Assembly (NCBI GenBank): GCA_030068145.1
Contig: JAPJBO010000073.1
Span: 28,501-92,500, forward strand
From: Diplonema papillatum
Taxonomy: Eukaryota; Euglenozoa; Diplonemea; Diplonemida; Diplonemidae
Direction: 5' to 3'
Length of the DNA: 64,000 bases
Shown: positions 10,201 through 44,679 of the stretch, in pieces
Position numbering within the stretch: the first letter of the stretch is position 1
Layout: each line of letters starts with the position of its first letter
Made by a program: the position numbers and the translations under genes
Notes under the pieces: model-generated
The model's database searches: none
What the model saw: the letters and a program-made list of their open reading frames with translations, nothing else
Told to the model about the DNA's origin: nothing

Positions 10201-10379
10201 TCAACCGTTCATCGCAGGGCAGCCGGCTGTTGAGCAGCGGCTGCCGGCTTATGCCGCGCACACTTTTTTAGAGTTAAAGTACGCTTGAGATTCCGGGATT
10301 TTAGGGTCTCGGGGTGATTCCAGTTACATTTCCAGGGCATTTCTTGCTCCCGCGCTCGATCCTGTCCTGAGACGGTATC

Positions 10380-10690
10380 GTTTACAGCAGTGGGTACTAC
10401 GCCGGTTATCCGATCATCTTGGATCCCCATGCTCTCGTTCTTGATGAATGAAGACATTTTTGTTGAATGCTTTCGCAGAAGTTCGTCTTACGATCTATGA
10501 ATTTCACCTCTGACGTAGGAGTACTTACGACCCCGGCAGTCTATTGATCCCGCGCAACGAGGCGAAACTCAAAAGAGAACCGCTAAGAACTTCGTTTTGA
10601 TTATTCCTTTCTCGGAGACTCAAGAGACCAACAAAAAAGAGTCGAGAGAATCGTTCCCTTGTCAGTCCATGTTTATAACTCACGGCGGTA
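10380..10690 (-). pseudogene. 18S rRNA fragment, central domain
   Basis: The minus strand contains highly conserved small-subunit rRNA signatures: GTCAGAGGTGAAATTC, GACGAACTTCTGCGAAAGCA and ACTGCTGTAAACGAT, in the correct order. The stretch is an isolated piece of roughly 300 nt with small indels, not flanked by the rest of an rDNA unit, so I call it a pseudogene or rRNA-derived insertion. It shares its extent with the fragment at 31840-32133. Confidence 0.85.
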
Positions 10691-10959
10691 TTCGCAGGGT
10701 GTTCAGGCCACAACATCCAAAACCGGTGTGTTGGCGCTTCAATGGGAGCATCCGTATGATAAGACCCCATTTAACCAAGGTCACCCGACCAGACCCTAAA
10801 TCGCGGAAATCTCAAGCGAACTTACTCTAATAACAGCTCCCGACATGGCTAGCCATCACTAATAATGAAAGTGCACCCCAAGAAATATGAAAACGGGGTT
10901 TTGCCTGGAGGCTTTTCGTGTTATCCTGCAGATGCTTTGAGCTACCTTTGTGTCTATGC

Positions 10960-28851: not shown

Positions 28852-31800
28852 TTACTTGGCCACCGCGTTGGACACGCTGCGGGACAGCGCCTCTACGGTG
28901 ATGCTCTGCTCGTTGCTGATGGAGAGCACTTCTCGGATTTCTTCGCTCTTCCTGCTCACTGAGTCCGTCAGCGCCTCGGTGGCGCTGTGCAGCTGCCGGA
29001 GGCCCTCATCGGTTTCGCTGGCGACGTCGCTCATGATCTGCTCAACAGCGCGTGCCTTCCTGGTGGCCCGTCTGCTGACGAAGACCCAGAACAGCAGCAC
29101 GAACATCACGACGCTGCACTCGAGCGCGGTCATGTACATCGGCGCTTCTGTACCTTGCTGCATGCTCAGCAACCACTTGCCCGCGTTTTGGTACATCTCC
29201 TTCGGCGAGTCCTTCTGCCACGGTAGCTGCTGGTCCCTGTCGTGTTGGAATTCGGGTTAAGCGCTGCGTCTGTCTTCCGCCCGGATGCGCAACCTCGCTG
29301 GTGAAACCACGGGTCAAACTCAAGTGGTTCGTGACTCCAAATTGGGGACCCAAGGCCTCAAACGAAAGGTTTCGTAGCACATCTCTTCGCAGCAGTAAAC
29401 ACGGACCTTTTTGACGTGCCTATAATCCGGAACCACGCTCGGGTTCCGACTTGCTCTGTTCGAATGCCCAGGTATCTTGAGAGCACTCCAGCCAAACTGG
29501 TGTCCCGAAACGCGGTTTTTGCAAGCAGAGAAAGCCCTAAGATCATTTCATTCATTCTTCTGCTTTCTGCTTTCAAAGGGGCAGTCCTCGATCGCATCTC
29601 TACGACCGACAGCTTTTCTCAATTGCTTTTTTTGTCATTCACCATCGTGTCTTCCCGATTACCTTGACCATGTGATCGAGCGTATACAAGTATTCTAACT
29701 CGGATCTGGAACGAGTCCATGGGATAGGAACGGTCTTGACTTTTGCATTTTCATTGGCACCCCCCCCCACTAGGGCATGTGATCATGGCAAACGTTGAAC
29801 GTTTGAACGTTTGAGAAACGTTTGCGTTTGCAAAATTCATGTCAAACGTGTATCAAACGTGAGGCGCTGGCTGCGCGTGCAGTGGGGTCGGCTTGTGTGA
29901 ACACTCGAGCCACAAGGGCAAGATCTTCATGCCCGGGGCCCAGAAAGGGGGGGGGAACACTTGCTGAAGGCTAGTATCTCCCTGTAGCTCCCTGTGCACG
30001 CCCAAGGAGAACCTTATTGTCGTCGTGTCCGCCTGCAGCCACGTGGACAAGTGCTATCAAGGGTCGTGTACTGTGTACAGACCCGGTCCATCGATTGGCA
30101 AACGTCACGCTTGCGCGTTTGTCAAACGCTTGCGTTTGATAAATCTTGTCAAACGTACGTTTGCAAACGTTTGATAACGTCACTGCAGTGGGACCCCGGG
30201 ACGCCCCCACGAGAAAGCTTTTCCATCCTGGGCCACGAACGGTACTGATTATTTGGGTACGTGTGGCAAGAACCTGCTTCGGCTGTCTTCTCTGTCGCAT
30301 GCACACGGATTCAGTCTCTGACTCGGAAATGGCGGAGTGCGTGGGGTGGGAATTTCAGACGGGCTCGGAGGTGTGGTCACTCGCTGCAGAGCTCTTTACA
30401 GCCGAGCGCAATACCACGTTGTTGAACACGATGACTCGCAGGGGGGTGCGACGTATTTGGGCCGCATGCTGCAAAATGGCTGCTGGAGAATCCACGAGGG
30501 TCCCTGCGGCTGAGTGATCCATGCTCGCTCGGGTCTCTGCGTCTTTCCCGGGTCGAACGGTACTACTGAACCACCGAACTGAAAGAGGTCGAAGGTTCTC
30601 ATACTTTTTCTTCAAGATTGACGCAGCCCATTGGGCTGAGGGAAAGCGATAAACAACGACGTGCGAAACCGCGCCAAGGTTGGACAGCGGAACCTCGCCG
30701 CCTTGTGCCAACTCAAAGCTACTTTTGGTAAAATTAGCTTGGCCATTTCGTCTGCTTCTTATGACCAAGACTACGGGTTAGGTTTGTTGGGCTGGGCTGG
30801 CATGGTAGTACGTGCCTGTTGACTACCAATTCATACATAATAAATTTTGTATCCGGAACGAACAGGACCCCGAGGGCAAAAAGGACCTTCTGGGGAAGCG
30901 GGGGGTTGAAAGTAGGGCCAGACCTGTTCATTTCGGTGAGCAGCTTGCGCTTTCCGATGACGCCGTGCACGGCCTCGTAGCTCTTCGCCTTCAGCAGCTG
31001 CTGTAAACCGCAGGCTGCGGTTTTCGTCCTGTTTGTTTCGGTGATGGTGAACATCTCCCTTCCCCCGGCGCAGGTTTTGCTCCTGCGCACCATTTTTGAT
31101 CGGCTTCCTTCTGGCAGGGTCGGTACACCCGGATGGGCGCACCTTGTACACCAAGGGCCCCCCCACTACCAGGTGGGTACCACGTAAGCATTCCTTGCGT
31201 CACATTATTTTGGATATCCGTAGAACACCTGTTCAGGCGTGGGCTCTGCCCTGTTCACTCGCCGTTACTAGGAGCATCGCTGTTGCTTTCTTTTCCTGCG
31301 CTGAGTGATGTGCTTAAGTTCGGTGTCTCTTCAACAGCTTTCTAGAGTAAGTTCGCTTAGGAATCGGGGGTTTTAAAGTCTCCGGGTGACCACTGTCGCA
31401 AAGGTTCATTTTGAGGTGTCGGAGACTAGTTTGCGTATCGCATCTGTGGCAGTGACCAGGACATGTGCTTGCGTGCGTGTCTTCGTTGCCTCTTGCCGAC
31501 GATTCAACATATTTTTGTGTTTCCGACGATCCCGTGGGACGTACATGTTGGTGTCTTCTCGACCTTGTGAGGTTCAGCTACAGGTGGTCGGTGGGCCCCC
31601 CCTCGCCGATAGGAAGCTTTACTTGTTATGTTACTGTGGGAGCTGGGGCAAAGCGCATGGCAGGCACCCTCCCGAACCGACTCCAGGAGTTTAGCCCCCC
31701 TTAGCATCATCACTGGACCTTCTCGAGCATTTCCTACGCAAGACCTGTGCTCTGATGAACGGTGGAATGGTGCCTTGCAAGTAATCTCTTCATCGGAATG

Positions 31801-32504
31801 AAAGCGCTTACGCGTACACCAAACGCATACGGGTCGACCACCGATGTTACTGTGAACAAACCAGCGTGCCCAAAGCAGGCGTTCGCCGTGAATGATAAAG
31901 CATGGAATAACAAGGGATCGATTCTCTCGACTCTTTTTGTTGGTCTTTTAACCCGAGAAAGACGAAACTCAAAAGAGAACCGCTAAGAACTTCGTGGCCT
32001 CGTTGCGCGGGATCAATAGGGACTGCCGGGGTCGTACGTACTCCTACGTCAGAGGTGAAATTTCTAGATCGTAGGAAGACGAACTTCTGCGAAAGCATTC
32101 GACAAGAATGTCTTTATTAATCAAGAACGAGACCAAGTGCCAAGAAACACGAGCGCGACATACGTTTGGCCGAGCTTCTGGGCGCCTTCCTTCGCCTGCT
32201 GCGACAGAACGTCCGGAATGGCACGTAGGGGTGTGTCACCATTGACGGTGACCACTTTGGCTCGTTCGCCTCGTGCAACTTCGATGTCTGCGGGGGGAAG
32301 AATTTGTTTCAGCGAAAGAGCGCGTGGTGCTTAGAGGGAAAATCTTGGTTGGAGTTAATAGAAAACACAAGTGGGGCACAGAGAAAGAGAGGGGGTAAAA
32401 CCCCGCAGACACTTACAGTCTCACTGCGGGAATGCTGCTGCGCAGTCGTCAAGCCAACCAAGAACCATGTGGTTGGGAGGGGGTGTAGTTGGACGGGAAG
32501 AAAA

Positions 32505-32548
<44 letters not shown>

Positions 32549-35500
32549 GAGTTAGAGTGCAGGGACCATCTCTCCGAGGAGTATCCGGTCGCCCCACTAC
32601 TGTCCCGTACTACTACGGCGGGCGTAAGTCGTAGCGCCGTGGGCGCGGAGCGAGCCGCGGCCCAGTCAAAGATGATTGTTGCACAGATGGTGGCGCAGCC
32701 GGGGGCGTTCTGACTGACGGACGAGACCGCCTGGCAGGCGTGTGTTGACACGTTGTTTCGCGGGCTCTCCTCCCTAAGTGATAGGTTTACCCTGGTTTGA
32801 TTTTCTCTTCGTTCTTTTTTGCAGACATTGCACCAAGAAGTATCCCACAGACTTTACGTCAGCGAACTCAAGGCGCAGACACTCCCTGAGGGACTAGTCC
32901 TCTTTCGCGTCCCTGGTTTAACTTTTGAACGCAGATCAAATTAAAAAGAGAGCTCATCAGCAGGTCCTTTGGACGGGGACTTTCGGTCTTGTTTTGGTGC
33001 TATCACAACTTTCTGGTTTCAATGGTTTCGTGTCCTTCTTTTGCCGGTTGGTCGGTTTCCCACCACAGCCACCAAAACGCGCTGCCTGCATCTATTGAAG
33101 GGCAACCTGCAAGATTGTTTTGTTGAACGCTTATGCTCGCCACTGAACCCAGATTCGCCTGTGTTTCGTGTGGGCTGCAGCACATTTACCTTCTTTGATC
33201 TTGGAATATTGTTGCGATGGTGGGGAGTCACCGGCATGCCGATGAGTACCACACTGAACTTTTATCATTCGCAACTGGCAGTTTCCTCAAGTATTGCTTA
33301 TACAAAGAAATACTCGAGGGGCTGCCTTGTGCTTACTTCGAAGGAGGCTAGAGGGGGAGAAACAATACAACTACAAAGTGGGTCTTTTTGTTGAACGCTT
33401 ACGCCCGCCACTGAACCCAGAATCACCTGTGTTTCGTGTGGGCTACAGCACATTTACCTCCTTTGATCTTTTGCAGCTGCCATCTCCTCAAGTATTTCCT
33501 ACAAAGCAGGTGCTTTGTTTGTGCGTGCCGGTTGATCGGTTTCGCACTTGTATTTACCCTGTGTGTATTCAGGTAAGGAATTCTGATCAACCACCAAAAC
33601 ACGCTGCCTACGTCTTTTTAGCCTGCACAATACATTGAAGGGCAACCCACAAGGTTGTTAGTACTAAAAAAAAAAGAGGGCGGGGGAAGCACCTTGGGCC
33701 ATCCGCACGAGAAGCTGGCGCTGCTTTTCCAAAAGCTTCTCGATGTCCTCGGCGGTGGCGTGCGACGATGCGACCGGCGCCGCCTGCGCCTTGGCGTCCG
33801 AAGACGGTTGCGAGGCGCTGGCATCCGCGCTGCCGGACGGCGGCGGCGTGGGAGGGGGAGTGGGCGGCGCCGGTTTTTTGAACGCCTTCGGCACCATGGA
33901 CGGCGCGGCCTTCACCGCGGCTGCCGGCACCGCCTGCGCAGACGAGGCACTGGCCGGAGTAGACGAGGCGCCGGCCGGCGAAGCGGGCGCAGAGGACGAC
34001 GGGGAGGCTGCGGGCTTGGCGCCCGCGCTCGATCCGGTCGAAGCCGCGGCGCCGCCGCCGCCGCTGGGCGCGGGCTTGCTGGCCTGGTCGGCCTGCGGCG
34101 GCTTGGCCGGCTCCGTGGCGTAGAACGCGACCTGTGCGGATATTAGGTTTGTGCGCAGGCCTCTCTGATGCTGGCATCGAGTCTGGAGGGGGGGGGGGGA
34201 ATCTTAATTAATTAATCTTTACACGGTGAGGTCCAGCCTCAGAAGCTGGAGTTAAAGCGGGAGTCTTGAAAAGCGGGTGTGCCACACCCGAAAAGCGGGT
34301 GTGGCACACCCGAAAAGCGGGTGTGGACTCCCGCTTTTCGGGTGTGGAACCCGGTTTTACGTTGGGGTTTTGGGGTTTTCTTGCGTTCTTTTTACCTGCG
34401 TTCTTTTTACCCGATTTTACGTTGGGGGTTTGGGGAGGTTTTGCGTTCTCTAAGCCCATTGAACCCCAAAAACAGTTTTTTTGGCTCGAAATATTTGTCT
34501 TCAGTAGGTATTTTATTATCTTCCCCACAGCCTTCAGGTGGGGCCACTCACTCTTCAACACACACTTGCACCATGTCGTCCGTCGCAAGTCTGCCACGAA
34601 CACCTGAAGACGCGAACAGAAAGCGGAAGCGCGCTGACAACGGCAATGACAGCGACAACGAAGACGAACAAGCGGTGTCAACGGTTGTGTCAGAGTTCAT
34701 CGAGACCTACCTGGTCAAAAAGGTAGGTGTAGCACTGCGACTCAGCAGCCTCCGCCTCCTCATTGAAGAAGTGATGTCGACGAAGCTTCACAAACAGTCG
34801 CCGATCCTCATGCGCTGTATCAACGAGCATGTCACGGCGTCAAAACTGAGCGCTGGGGAGGTCAAGATGATGGCAAAAAATAAGACCCTCCCCGCCCAGT
34901 ACCGCGTGGAAAGTAAATCACGCGGGACACAGGATGTTAAGGTGTTCGGAGTCACCCTGCGCAACAAGGCCATCGCTGCATGGAAGCAGGAGGGGCACGC
35001 GAAGTACGCCCTCTACAACAGGGTGCGTCAAGCAACAAAACCCACGTTCAGGGACGCAGACCTCCAAACGGTACTTGCTTCAATCACCCAAGACCAGAGC
35101 ACGGACGCCTCCCAAATCGAAGAGCAGAAGCCAGCCCGCGTCACCTTCCCTGTTACGACGCCGGGCGCGCCAGACGAAGGGTTCCATGTCACCCTCATTG
35201 AAGGACTGTTCACAAGGGTGAACTACAGGGTGAGCTGTACAACTGTAGATCTGGAGTGCATCCGGGTTGTCCCGGAAGGCAGCAGTGTGCCATCAGGAGT
35301 GTACCCGCTGACGTATGTTCTCGAGGGGACTATCGACGACCAGAAGCCCGTGCAGTGCAGACAGCTGCAGCTTGGCGTATGGCAAGTCAAGGTCCCCCTT
35401 GCGCGGCCTGCAGCAGTTGCTGGGGAGGGCGTAGCGGGAAACGACATGGACGAGGAGTACCGGAAGATCATGGGTATCATCCTCAAACCCGATGTTGAAG

Positions 35501-38500
35501 AACCCCAGCAGACGGCATTGCAAGCACTGCTGGTCGAAGATGGCATTGAAGACCTCTAGGGGAGAAAAGTGGGTACTGACCACCAGTCGGACTCCGCACC
35601 CCTTCATCAGCTCTGCTTCCGTGTTCAACGTCGCTGCCCACAGGCAGGTCCCGTCGACATTCGCACTCATCACCATCATCAGCGAGTTCCATCCCTTTCT
35701 CAATCACCACCGGTAACGCGTTTCCACTCGTCGGTGCGTTCGGTGTTCCTTCTTTCTTCTTTGAGAGCTCAGTTCCTGGTTGGAGGACGTAGCCGCAGCC
35801 CTCGTCGGTCTGTTTCTTTGCCGATCCGTTTCTTCATGTAGGAGCCGCTCCTTGTGCTATCTGCAACTACGAGAACTTGCAGTTCGGGATATGGGACTCT
35901 GAGAGGAAGCAGTATTCTAGCTTGCTAACTCGGTTGATATTCTGCATGATTGGTTGCTGTGGAACAAGGCCATCAACGCATCAAAGCCGCATAGAGCGTG
36001 TGTTTGTGCAGCGGAAACCGACAATGACGAACAGCAATATCTGGATGCCCCCGCGATGCCCATCTGCGCAGTGGCAGGTACCTCAGTCGCAACTCATCAA
36101 AAAACAACACAAGCACACGCAGGAAGAAAATAATGAGGCATGCCGTCAGCAAAAGCCGTTATCCATGAGGTGGGCCATACTCTCATGGAGGAACGCCATG
36201 CGACACGGACCTCGCAGAGAAAGTTGGGTCTTGTAAACCGTTCGCACAAGAGGAAGACAGGGCTGAGCCTCGGAACGTCAGCAAAGCGCTGCAAAAAGAT
36301 GGAGAAAGAGCCGCGCTCCCGCGTACAGATAAGGTTGAAACAGGGACTAGTCGGCGCATTCCAGTTCTTAGAAGCGGAAGGCTGGCGTGCATCCACAACT
36401 GTGTCTTGCCTACCGCTTCTTGGTGTACTGTATACTGACGGATATACAGTCAGAAACTCGCTGAGGTCACGCAACGCACGCACGCGTCTTTCCATGTCTC
36501 TGGTCAACCCGGAGACCGGAAACTATGTCCCGTCCATTACGGTTGTCGACAGGAAGAAAGCTCGTTTTAGCGAGTTTGAGAACCGGTTTCTCAACGGCGA
36601 CATATTGCGTCTTCACGCTGCAAAGGTTGTGCGCCCGGTGTATTCTGACAGCAGCGATGTTGTGACTCGAGTCCAGATTCGAAAGCTCACTGGGGATCAC
36701 TTCGACAGGTGGCTGAGGCTCGTCGGCTGCGGTGGAACGGGCCACCGATGCGCAACATGCGCTGTCCCGATATCCAAATGGAGCTTACACATGCACCGGT
36801 TTCCGCACCTCACCCTGTCTGAAATGGCCCAATCTGGGTACATGTCGTTGCTGAGCTCAGTGGTACCCTTTGCACGTTATGTTTCTCCAGCGCTGCATGA
36901 CATCAAGGGCATGGGGTTGTCATTGTTCAAACACCTAGATGTTGAAAGCATGTCAGTGTTGCAAGCTCTGTGCAGCAGCATGAACATCGACGTCAGTCAG
37001 AACGCCACTGGAGCACATGTGAGAACAATTGTGCGCATGATGGCGGAGAAAGAGCTTCCGACAACATATCGTTGGCTATTTGTTTGCTTGTCCGAACTTG
37101 TCGCCTTCCGGTATTCGGACGTGCCGTGGCGTTACTGGGGTCGAAAAGAATCTGCCGCCGGTGTCCCCTTCCTCCGTGCCCGTTTGTCGGCGCACATCTT
37201 CCTCCACCTTTTCGAGAGAGTACGCAAGGGAGCAACAAGAAATGCGTACTGCCACAGCCTCAACCACTGGTGGGATCCCATGGATGCACTTCCGCTTCAG
37301 TGTTCGGATGAAGCTGAAGAAGCTGAAAACGGAGAGCGGAAAGCTGATGTACCCACGATAACCAGTCCAAGAAGCTGCGAGGTTGATCTGGCATTGGCGG
37401 AAGAAAAACGGAGAACCCGACGACCTGAGTGGAAGGTTTCTGAGCTGTCCCAGACCGGAATACTTGGAAGAAAGACAGTACTGGTTTGCGACTGCCTGCA
37501 CCGCGATGTGCGTAGCAAACTATCCCTTGTTGTTCTTTGTGAGCAGCTCGTTGCAATGCAAAACAACTTCGTCTTTCATGGGGGGCAGTACACGGCATTT
37601 GTGTTTCCGAGTGGAACTGGAACTATCCGTGTGTGCTTTTGTGAGGCACCAGAGGCACCCCCGCAACTCGTGCCATTTGTTCCAGATGAGCGCATAAAAA
37701 GCGACCTCGTCCAGAGAGCGCAGAAGGAGCTGCAGGATGCAGAAAACGATGTTGAAACAGTAAGTGACGAGGCTGACGAACCCGAGGAGTGTGAGGAAGA
37801 GGAGGAAGTGGAGGAGGATGAAGACGAAGAGTCGGAGGAGGAAAGTGAGGCGTATCTGCATTGCGACTTTTGCAATAAAAGAACCGTTGAATCATCTATG
37901 GCAGCCCATATTGACGCAGCGCATCGCGATCCCGTTGAATGCTTGTGCATGGCCAACTGTTCAGAATGCCACACAAAGGTGAAGGTGAATGGAATGAGTC
38001 AACATATCCAAAAAAAACATCCTTCTCTCTTCAGTGAGCCTCTCCGATGCAAGCTGTGCTGGAGAAAGCTTGGGTCAAAGAGTGCGTGGACACGGCACAT
38101 TCGTCAACATGACTTGCGTGCCCTATAAGTCATTTTTCAGTTCATTTTTTCATTTCACGAGTGCTTAGCTTGTGTAAGCTTAGTTGCACCCATCAAAATG
38201 CTCTAAACCAGTTGCACCCATTCAATCGTTCGTTTGCAGCATCAACACGCCCCAAAGTGGGTCGAACCAGAGCCAGATGCAGAAGCAGCATTGACAGACA
38301 CAGGGTGGACTCCCAGCGTGGGCAAGAAAGCAGCCCACAGCAGAGGTGCAAGAGAACGTCAGCTCATTAGTTGCGGACGAAGGCGACCAGATCGCGAACT
38401 ACAGGAGACAAAAGAAGCCTGTTGAAGAGTGAGCTGGGCCATCTGAAGATGTATTCTGTGGGGAAAACAATGAAAACCTCTGCTCAAAACGGAAGCTCGA

Positions 38501-38952
38501 GGTCTGGAGGAGTCAGATACCCTAATCTGGGGTCCGATTGGTAAAAAGAACGCAATAAAAACCCCAAAGCCCCAGCGCAAAGCCGGGTCCCACACCCGAA
38601 AAGCGGGAGTCCACACCCGCTTTTCGGATGTGGCACACCCGCTTTTCGGGTGTGGCACACCCGAAAAGCGGGTGTACCCCACACCCGCTCGCAAGGCCGC
38701 TCTTCAGCTCCAGCCTCTGAGGCTGGACCTCACCGTGTAGTAACCACGGGGGAGAAATTTCAGTTTAACCCGCCTCAGGGCGAACGACGCATATATGCGC
38801 CGTTACCTGTCTCATATGCAGACATGCATCCGGTGATGTTCCTTTCAGTACGACAGTAAAGGGGGGGGGGGGGGGGCCTTTATTACTAAGGATGAAAAGC
38901 AAGGTCATACCTGTTGCCTCTTCGCGATGCTCAACGCGGCACGGCGGAGCAT
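28852..38952 (-). CDS. Mitochondrial-type membrane protein, 5 exons, 382 aa
   Basis: Exons on the minus strand: 38952-38911, 34131-33693, 32287-32164, 31082-30924 and 29236-28852 (stop TAA). Every junction is GT-AG and each phase fits the next (0, 1, 2, 2), which strongly supports the model. Exon 1 encodes only MLRRAALSIAKRQQ; joined to VAFYAT it makes a typical mitochondrial presequence with a likely cleavage near FYA. Next comes a long Ala/Pro/Ser-rich linker (with PPTPPPTPPP), a short helix (DIEKLLEKQRQLLVRMAQ), and a globular part with GREMFTITETNRTKTAACGL. The last exon has one membrane segment (SVVMFVLLFWVFV) followed by a helical tail. No family was recognised. I infer a mitochondrial (inner-membrane) location. 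Intron 1 is 4779 bp and contains a whole transposon on the opposite strand. Confidence 0.8.
29760..30200. repeat. AAACGTTTG palindrome clusters
   Basis: Two clusters (29785-29860 and 30090-30180) of short AAACGTTTG / CAAACGT units bracket about 230 bp, in the last intron of the mitochondrial-type gene. They resemble subterminal repeats of a small DNA element; clean ends were not identified. Confidence 0.45.
31840..32133 (+). pseudogene. 18S rRNA fragment, central domain
   Basis: In order: TTACTGTGAACAAACCAGCG, CAAAGCAGGCGTTCGCC, AAAGCATGGAATAACAAGGG, GTCAGAGGTGAAATTTC, ACGAACTTCTGCGAAAGCAT and TTAATCAAGAACGAGA, all recognisable small-subunit rRNA motifs. The piece lies in an intron of the minus-strand gene, ending only about 30 bp from the exon 3 donor. 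It is not part of an rDNA repeat. Confidence 0.9.
32508..32548 (+). repeat. GA microsatellite
   Basis: A run of about 19 GA units, directly followed by a family H copy (32535-32640). Confidence 0.9.
33110..33515 (+). repeat. Family B dimer
   Basis: Two head-to-tail family B copies meet at CTTATACAAAGAAATACTCG (about 33296-33315), which defines the 3' and 5' ends of the family. The first copy has an extra insert (ATGGTGGGGAGTCACCGGC). Confidence 0.8.
33525..33670 (+). repeat. Dispersed repeat family J
   Basis: Shares CACGCTGCCTACGTCTTTTT and AGGGCAACCCACAAGGTTGT with 41098-41245; shorter pieces are at 33040-33125 and 44195-44230. Confidence 0.75.
34222..34400 (+). repeat. Left TIR of the 4.5-kb transposon
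   Basis: Starts CACGGTGAGGTCCAGCC and holds alternating GAAAAGCGGGTGTG and CCCGCTTTTCGGGTGTG palindromic units. The right TIR has the same order of units. Confidence 0.85.
34573..35559 (+). CDS. Transposon ORF1, 328 aa, unknown function
   Basis: Start chosen at CACCATGTCGTCC (34573); the frame is open further upstream only through the TIR. The N-terminus has a likely nuclear signal (NRKRKRADNGNDSDNEDEQ), then a helical block (SEFIETYLVKKVGVALRLSS), a basic centre with AKNKTLPAQYRV, and a beta-rich second half ending IMGIILKPDVEEPQQTALQ. No catalytic motif is visible. By position it may be a DNA-binding or accessory protein acting with ORF2. Codon use is balanced, unlike the GC3-rich host exons. 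No family was recognised. Confidence 0.75.
   Translation: MSSVASLPRTPEDANRKRKRADNGNDSDNEDEQAVSTVVSEFIETYLVKKVGVALRLSSLRLLIEEVMSTKLHKQSPILMRCINEHVTASKLSAGEVKMMAKNKTLPAQYRVESKSRGTQDVKVFGVTLRNKAIAAWKQEGHAKYALYNRVRQATKPTFRDADLQTVLASITQDQSTDASQIEEQKPARVTFPVTTPGAPDEGFHVTLIEGLFTRVNYRVSCTTVDLECIRVVPEGSSVPSGVYPLTYVLEGTIDDQKPVQCRQLQLGVWQVKVPLARPAAVAGEGVAGNDMDEEYRKIMGIILKPDVEEPQQTALQALLVEDGIEDL
36140..38128 (+). CDS. Transposon ORF2, 662 aa, C2H2 zinc-finger protein, candidate transposase
   Basis: Single uninterrupted frame; an in-frame TGA lies two codons before the ATG, so the start is fixed unless an intron is present. The N-terminus is basic. A CATC...HMHRFPH finger lies at about 205-225. The central 300 residues are mixed helix and strand with no DDE, YR or HUH signature that I can see. 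An acidic run (DEADEPEECEEEEEVEEDED) precedes three C-terminal fingers: CDFC...H....H, CSEC...H....H and CKLC...H...H (about 575-657). Fingers at the end of a long catalytic-size protein suit a DNA-binding transposase, but the enzyme type is unknown. It follows ORF1 by 580 bp. Confidence 0.75.
   Translation: MPSAKAVIHEVGHTLMEERHATRTSQRKLGLVNRSHKRKTGLSLGTSAKRCKKMEKEPRSRVQIRLKQGLVGAFQFLEAEGWRASTTVSCLPLLGVLYTDGYTVRNSLRSRNARTRLSMSLVNPETGNYVPSITVVDRKKARFSEFENRFLNGDILRLHAAKVVRPVYSDSSDVVTRVQIRKLTGDHFDRWLRLVGCGGTGHRCATCAVPISKWSLHMHRFPHLTLSEMAQSGYMSLLSSVVPFARYVSPALHDIKGMGLSLFKHLDVESMSVLQALCSSMNIDVSQNATGAHVRTIVRMMAEKELPTTYRWLFVCLSELVAFRYSDVPWRYWGRKESAAGVPFLRARLSAHIFLHLFERVRKGATRNAYCHSLNHWWDPMDALPLQCSDEAEEAENGERKADVPTITSPRSCEVDLALAEEKRRTRRPEWKVSELSQTGILGRKTVLVCDCLHRDVRSKLSLVVLCEQLVAMQNNFVFHGGQYTAFVFPSGTGTIRVCFCEAPEAPPQLVPFVPDERIKSDLVQRAQKELQDAENDVETVSDEADEPEECEEEEEVEEDEDEESEEESEAYLHCDFCNKRTVESSMAAHIDAAHRDPVECLCMANCSECHTKVKVNGMSQHIQKKHPSLFSEPLRCKLCWRKLGSKSAWTRHIRQHDLRAL
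38545..38737 (-). repeat. Right TIR of the 4.5-kb transposon
   Basis: Inverse of 34222-34400. The terminal 30 bp differ by one base, and internal unit numbers differ slightly. Confidence 0.85.
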
Positions 38953-44521: not shown

Positions 44522-44679
44522 CACGGCGGAGTCCAGAAGCTGGAGTTAAAAAAGCGGGTGCCACATACTCTTTCCGAGTGTGCATTTACACGCGTTTTTG
44601 GTTGTAGCACCCCCGCCTTTCGGTTGTGACTCGGGCACACCCTCTTGAACTCCAGCTTCTGAGGCTGGACCTCAACGCG
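44522..44679. mobile_element. MITE derived from the 4.5-kb element, 158 bp
   Basis: Ends CACGGCGGAGTCCAGAAGCT and the inverse AGCTTCTGAGGCTGGACCTC...CGCG, flanked by TA on both sides, with AAAAAGCGGGTGCCAC inside. Only the TIR-like parts remain. Confidence 0.75.

Follow-up and report, generated by a model that had tools for sequence, protein, structure and literature searches.

The window, a stretch of 64,000 nucleotides of the genome of the marine flagellate Diplonema papillatum, contains a 4516-bp element that lies between two TA dinucleotides and carries two genes, p1 and p2, on the plus strand. The preliminary description had recognized an intact transposon at 34222-38737 with two open reading frames of 328 and 662 amino acids, and its ends, its coordinates and both frames (34573-35559 and 36140-38128) are as described. 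The features of the locus are the following.

34220..34221, no strand: left copy of the target-site duplication, TA, 2 bp
34222..38737: element, 4516 bp, between the two TA dinucleotides
34222..34257, plus strand: left terminal inverted repeat, tip CACGGTGAGG, by outer-arm pairing
34274..34379, plus strand: inner inverted repeat of the left subterminal region, containing CCGAAAAGCGG-type sites at 34288, 34310 and 34331
34573..35559, plus strand: p1 (328 aa), a conserved partner protein with no known domain
36140..38128, plus strand: p2 (662 aa), a putative DDE transposase of CMCT type
36437..36439, plus strand: p2 D100 (in TDGYT), candidate for the first catalytic acid, invariant in all 5 rows reaching the column
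36695..36697, plus strand: p2 D186 (in GDHFDRW), candidate for the second catalytic acid, invariant in all 6 rows
36749..36760, plus strand: p2 C204-x2-C207, candidate zinc half-site, both cysteines in 5 of 6 rows
36896..36901, plus strand: p2 H253-D254 in PALHDIKG, matching ALHCDIG of RAG1, 6 of 6 rows
37253..37267, plus strand: p2 H372-x3-H376, candidate second zinc half-site, 5 of 5 rows reaching the site
37319..37321, plus strand: p2 E394 in SDEAEEAENGERK, preferred candidate for the third catalytic acid, 5 of 5 rows reaching the site
37862..38110, plus strand: zinc-finger array of C2H2/Di19-like type at the C terminus, preceded by an acidic stretch, from Pfam and PDB searches
38558..38663, minus strand: inner inverted repeat of the right subterminal region, containing sites at 38596, 38617, 38639 and 38661
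38702..38737, minus strand: right terminal inverted repeat, tip CACCGTG, by outer-arm pairing
38738..38739, no strand: right copy of the target-site duplication, TA
44522..44679, no strand: decayed non-autonomous copy (MITE) of 158 bp whose ends are related, TA-flanked, outside the 22-copy set used below

The element begins with CACGGTGAGGTCC... and ends with its reverse complement, so that the tips read CACGGTG...CACCGTG. The long terminal inverted repeats noted previously are composite. The outer arms (34220-34257 and 38702-38739) pair at 92% over 38 nt, and the inner arms (34274-34379 and 38558-38663) pair at 93% over 106 nt. The subterminal zones harbor seven CCGAAAAGCGG-type sites, three on the left and four on the right, versus a mean of 0.15 and a maximum of 2 in 100 shuffled elements; three more such sites occur elsewhere in the window, outside the element. 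As a separate observation, the tip at 34222-34231 and 38728-38737 reads CACG/GTGAGG and resembles a 5' splice site in both insertion orientations, and TAG or CAG directly follows the element in nine of 21 right flanks. Splicing at these tips would leave a net +3 nt, an introner-like idea.

What is the target site of the element? The duplication scan covered the window and loci L009-L044 and used the 22 copies in which both ends were recognized, excluding four copies in which only the left end was recognized (L010, L012, L018 and L028) and loci without a recognized left end, such as L014. An exact 2-bp duplication, and none longer, flanks 21 of these copies (TA in 12, CA in five and TG in four), L037 being the sole copy without one. 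When the flanks of the window element are joined, the two halves overlap by exactly two bases. The TA that the preliminary description had reported on both sides is present at both window tips but is not a fixed target, given that TA, CA or TG is found across copies. The same dinucleotides precede 816 of the 928 exact tips in the genome (TA 440, CA 199 and TG 177), and the other 112 tips differ; the CA count is close to the TG count, as it should be if a CA duplication reads as TG from the far end. Thus, the 2-bp duplications and the tip dinucleotides together identify the duplicated sequence as mostly a YR dinucleotide.

Empty sites, which the preliminary description had suggested as a check, were sought for 23 junctions (those of the 22 copies and of the window MITE) in the DNA of the loci fetched. 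For three junctions, one each for TA, CA and TG, a clean paralogous empty site containing a single dinucleotide was found. The TA site of L009 is found in L022 (198 bp, 99.5%), and the CA site of L011 is found on C213 (54 bp, 100%), C88 (54 bp, 98%) and C911 (63 bp, 94%). The TG site of L015 is found in L014, L017, L019 and L029 (60-70 bp, 93-95%), the match having a gap of 3 bp before the junction. For the window insertion itself, no empty site was found, its flanks matching the window locus only. Five further candidates were discounted: those of L013 and L025 are gapped at or beside the junction, that of L016 spans 38 bp and has mismatches next to the junction, that of L032 is a match to itself, and that of L037, in L021, has extra bases at the junction, so the missing duplication of L037 may reflect a flank deletion. 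The L009 insertion lies in a perfect palindrome. Palindromic target sites were rejected as a rule, as the flank complementarity over 21 sites (38 versus a mean of 30.2) was reached in 6.5% of 5000 shuffles.

The genome searched comprises 271 Mb on 2910 contigs; the available portion of the published genome description gives an assembly of ~280 Mb (PMC10161547). A DNA search identified near-full copies on C160, C1382, C80 and C2247 in addition to partial copies. The L009 copy is 99.5% identical to the window element over 4542 columns (4.5 kb), and p1 and p2 of L009, L011 and L014 are 100% identical to those of the window element at the protein level, which bears out the recent mobility that had been read from the tips and open frames. 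The preliminary description had also made its case depend on other copies with the same ends, and these are present. The p2 protein search (67 of 808 candidates scored) yielded at least 70 matches, at least 36 of which span at least 650 residues, including a long copy on C528 that contains stops. Across the 271-Mb genome, the 22-bp tip pattern is found 3689 times when up to two mismatches are allowed, versus once for the reversed control; exact tips number 928 (457 on one strand and 471 on the other) versus 0 for the control. Short copies among those examined measure 135-175 bp, and the window MITE at 44522-44679 lies 5.8 kb from the full element.

Some loci carry rearranged parts of the element. 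L036 (C628:35144-37388) is a derivative with a tandem array of ~45-bp units of the subterminal region, L018 (C484:156079-157543) repeats element positions 313-379 about 133 bp apart, and C81:90219-90423 is a tandem array of element ends, with five tip matches at an exact 46-bp spacing. The window also contains scattered SSU and LSU rRNA fragments (Rfam) at 31729-32124, 10356-10837 and 31248-31327; about 3600 scattered 28S pieces are given for this genome in the portion of the genome description available (PMC10161547).

The two genes are inherited together. Within 6 kb upstream of the 36 long p2 copies, p1 is found in at least 33, three lacking it among the matches used, and in at least 26 of these 33 p1 is near full length and on the same strand; these counts are lower bounds, with 37 of 70 p2 matches and 58 of 123 p1 matches used for the pairing. 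A distant family comprises 12 p1 matches with 35% identity to the p1 of the window. Near-full-length p2 lies downstream of p1 at six places in this family (C336, C915, C1496, C208, C423 and C566), with both genes in the same order and 44% identity of p2 to P0001; a partial p2 is found on C1373, and no p2 was found for the other five p1 among the listed matches (64 of 507 candidates scored). The intact distant-family copy L046 encodes a p1 of 351 aa (from the first ATG) and a p2 of 651 aa, and the broken copy L045 has CACGGCGG ends, a CACGGCG tip and TA adjoining both sides. Across families, p1 retains 35% identity, and the core pieces of p2 retain ~50%. Between the window element and the L021 family, third codon positions are the most changed, the non-coding parts align at 50-70%, and dN/dS (NG86) is 0.23 for p1 and 0.18 for p2. 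Both genes are maintained under purifying selection.

The p1 protein has 123 matches in the genome and none in Pfam, where its relative in the L021 family has a single match at E 0.14. A protein search with p1 and its L021 relative (8000 candidates scored) returned one match, Diplonema papillatum DIPPA_32645, which is 99% identical (318/320) to the p1 of the L021 sister family from the same genome and so points to D. papillatum as the host. In an L021-type sub-lineage on ten contigs (C16, C46, C171, C243, C252, C501, C1244, C1739, C2199 and C2354), including the loci L020, L022 and L023, the 3' portion of p1, beginning around residue 206-233 and running to 328, is inverted relative to the 5' portion. 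A form with an internal inversion, probably non-autonomous, thus appears to have spread.

For p2, a first protein search (query A1) gave no match among 8000 candidates scored, and P0001 (46%) and P0002 (49%) are the two proteins with E <= 1 when residues 80-390 of p2 were used as the query against 1385 candidates. No homologue was found in the viral contigs searched. Sequence and profile comparisons of p2 with Pfam and PDB gave zinc-finger, acidic-stretch and weak or chance matches and no transposase among the matches listed, one profile comparison listing the best 25 of 37 weak families. The terminal C2H2 array of the preliminary description is confirmed at 37862..38110, with a PDB match to DEHYDRATION-INDUCED 19 (E 1.7e-4). 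The AlphaFold model of p2, built from three sequences, has a mean pLDDT of 41.9, which is too low to be read for the RNase H-like fold with a zinc-binding insertion that is typical of the CMCT clade.

An alignment of six p2 rows (the window, L021, L046, P0001, P0002 and the broken far relative L029 on C103) reveals an ordered set of invariant residues. In the rows reaching each column (five or six of the six), D100, D137, D186, H253-D254, H352, E359, H372 and H376 are invariant, as are D390, E391, E394, E396, N397, R400 and K401, and the p2 pieces of L045 agree with these columns. At the C204 column, L029 has a serine, with a CxxC of its own three residues further on. H352-x3-H356 was rejected as a zinc pair because H356 varies, failing in three of five rows. 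E359, E391, E394 and E396 are equally invariant, so the assignment of E394 as the third acid is a choice among four glutamates. VVDxKK and NAYCHSLxHWW are additional conserved motifs. The L029 relative (L029:2005-5035) is frame-broken and 28% identical over residues 89-258, and its element has CACTAG-like ends and 21-22-bp subterminal repeats. A target duplication was looked for at L029 and none was found; therefore, its CACTAG-like ends are not used as proof of CACTA kinship.

The order of these residues is that of RAG1. In mouse RAG1, whose sequence was verified against PDB, D600, D708, C727-x2-C730, H795 in ALHCDIG, H937-x4-H942 and E962-x2-N965 follow one another, and p2 presents D100, D186, C204-x2-C207, H253, H372-x3-H376 and E394-x2-N397 in the same order. 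The spacings are 18 residues in p2 and 19 in RAG1 from the second aspartate to the first cysteine, and 18 (to E394) and 20 from the last histidine to the glutamate. The preliminary description, which saw no DDE pattern in p2, does not hold on this point. Its internal finger is probably the split zinc site of the CMCT clade.

The CMCT clade (named here as EnSpm, Mirage, Chapaev, Transib and RAG1) is characterized, in the excerpted account of PMC12730594, by C(2)C and H(3-4)H between the second D and the last E, CA..TG ends and a TSD of 2-5 bp. The Diplonema element has a candidate for each of these marks. Two acids are invariant (D100 in 5/5 and D186 in 6/6 rows), the third being ambiguous among E359, E391, E394 and E396; C204-x2-C207 occurs in 5/6 rows and H372-x3-H376 in 5/5 rows reaching the site; the ends are CACGGTG..CACCGTG, with CACGGCG in the distant-family copy L045; and the TSD is 2 bp in 21 of 22 copies. 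A significant similarity to a named member was found neither in Pfam or PDB, among the matches listed, nor by hhalign with RAG1. The p2 core profile scored 17.6 against mouse RAG1, versus a mean of 15.6 and a maximum of 26.3 for 100 shuffles, and the shared motifs were left unaligned. The ordered motif pattern is present in p2, P0001 and RAG1 but in no shuffled sequence (20000 each for p2 and RAG1), a test that is post hoc because the pattern was drawn up with both proteins in view; the truncated P0002, in which D100 is missing, does not fit. The motifs follow the CMCT order, yet no significant alignment accompanies them, and the kinship is thus likely by architecture and unproven by sequence. 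The case for a CMCT link is built on the order of the motifs, the ends and the length of the TSD, and the element resembles a distant relative of the transposons from which vertebrates obtained RAG1.

How does the element compare with the individual named lineages? Transib and RAG1 share with p2 the order D, D, CxxC, ALH(C)D, HxxxH and E-x2-N. The Transib/RSS heptamer is CAC(A/G)GTG, which the Diplonema tip CACGGTG resembles, but the TSD of Transib is 5 bp versus 2 bp here. Neither a C-terminal C2H2 array nor p1 is known as a Transib part, and no RAG1 or RAG1L chain appears among the PDB matches listed. EnSpm/CACTA elements have CAC ends and subterminal repeats in common with the Diplonema element, and they likewise have two genes, TNPD and TNPA. 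However, their tip is CACTA and their TSD is 3 bp, in contrast to CACGG and 2 bp here, their transposase is larger than p2, and Pfam gave no match of p2 to TNP2 (PF02992). Chapaev and Mirage, compared by description and Pfam only, share the CMCT clade features; their motif SEEAxEAxNK resembles SDEAEEAENG here, and the TSD of Chapaev is 4 bp. ESTA, an EnSpm-like element of rust fungi compared by its partial description only (PMC12730594), shares the CMCT-type motif order and a dinucleotide TSD. That TSD is TA, whereas CA or TG accounts for nine of the 21 duplications here, and the ESTA families described with TET carry TET, the partner here being p1 (same source). For SmTRC1, which belongs with EnSpm/CACTA, 2-bp direct repeats are given in 7 of 14 copies in the portion of PMC1636069 available. 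Zisupton (KDZ) has an 8-bp TSD according to the same excerpt of PMC12730594, in contrast to 2 bp here. The element fits no named lineage tested.

The preliminary description had assigned the element to an unknown superfamily, and a profile search for a named one indeed returned none among the matches listed, but the residue order in p2 is of CMCT type. Given the DDE-type order and the unfixed TA, the "unknown superfamily" is best read as a very diverged, probably CMCT-clade lineage that is so far unnamed. We consider it probable that the element is an autonomous transposon of the cut-and-paste type and that it encodes a DDE transposase of CMCT type, the highly diverged p2, together with a conserved partner, p1. 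A DDE transposon outside CMCT, forming a new superfamily in which the CxxC/HxxxH likeness to RAG1 is convergent or coincidental, is an unlikely alternative. It would be consistent with the lack of a profile match to a named family among the matches listed or to RAG1, with the YR duplication, whose CA and TG are unlike the TA reported for ESTA, and with VVDxKK and NAYCHSLxHWW, which are absent from the CMCT description in the available portion of PMC12730594. However, the ends, the TSD length, CxxC, ALHD, HxxxH and ExxN are all in the CMCT order. An enzyme of another chemistry with a 2-bp stagger, such as a serine-recombinase-like protein, would also suit the 2-bp YR duplication and could be sought in p2 or in p1, which has no known domain; we regard it as quite improbable, since Pfam gives no recombinase domain for either protein and the invariant acids and zinc pairs of p2 suit a DDE enzyme better. 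A Tc1/mariner- or PHIS-like element would explain why TA is the commonest duplication (12/21; 440/928 tips) but is scarcely credible, being contradicted by CA and TG duplications with empty sites, which depart from a strict TA, by the p2 Pfam list, which holds no transposase family, by tips that begin with CAC, and by the conserved CxxC/HxxxH pair of p2.

For the CMCT-type transposon that we favor, the following mechanism is proposed. As the putative DDE transposase, p2 would bind the element ends, cut at the CAC tips and, with a stagger of 2 bp, join them to a YR dinucleotide, generating the 2-bp duplication. The C-terminal zinc fingers, p1 or both may bind the CCGAAAAGCGG subterminal repeats and assemble the ends, by analogy with TNPA, which binds subterminal repeats and assembles the ends for En/Spm; the role of p1 is the weakest step of this mechanism. 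In addition, p1 and p2 may move short MITEs with the same tips in trans. The support for a real, recently active element that works like a CMCT transposon is good but not conclusive. We class it as a highly diverged element of CMCT type. We advance only tentatively, at somewhat less than even odds, a separate eukaryotic DNA transposon superfamily with a RAG1-like transposase and an obligate p1, which would be YR-aimed, diplonemid-native, retained across deep divergence and the seed of many short copies in this genome.

No description of the element or of a diplonemid CMCT transposon was found in the portions of the published literature available, and a Repbase or unpublished entry is possible. 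The available portion of the genome description names TATE, MULE and Helitron as D. papillatum DNA transposons and defers rigorous identification (PMC10161547). If our reading is true, transposases of the RAG1/CMCT kind extend to Euglenozoa, where this one has diverged beyond the reach of the profile searches tried and follows a YR target rule that is not named for its relatives in the portions of the literature examined. The apparently intact copies and the empty sites provide material for testing the function of a second transposon protein, and the element would be the autonomous partner for diplonemid MITEs.
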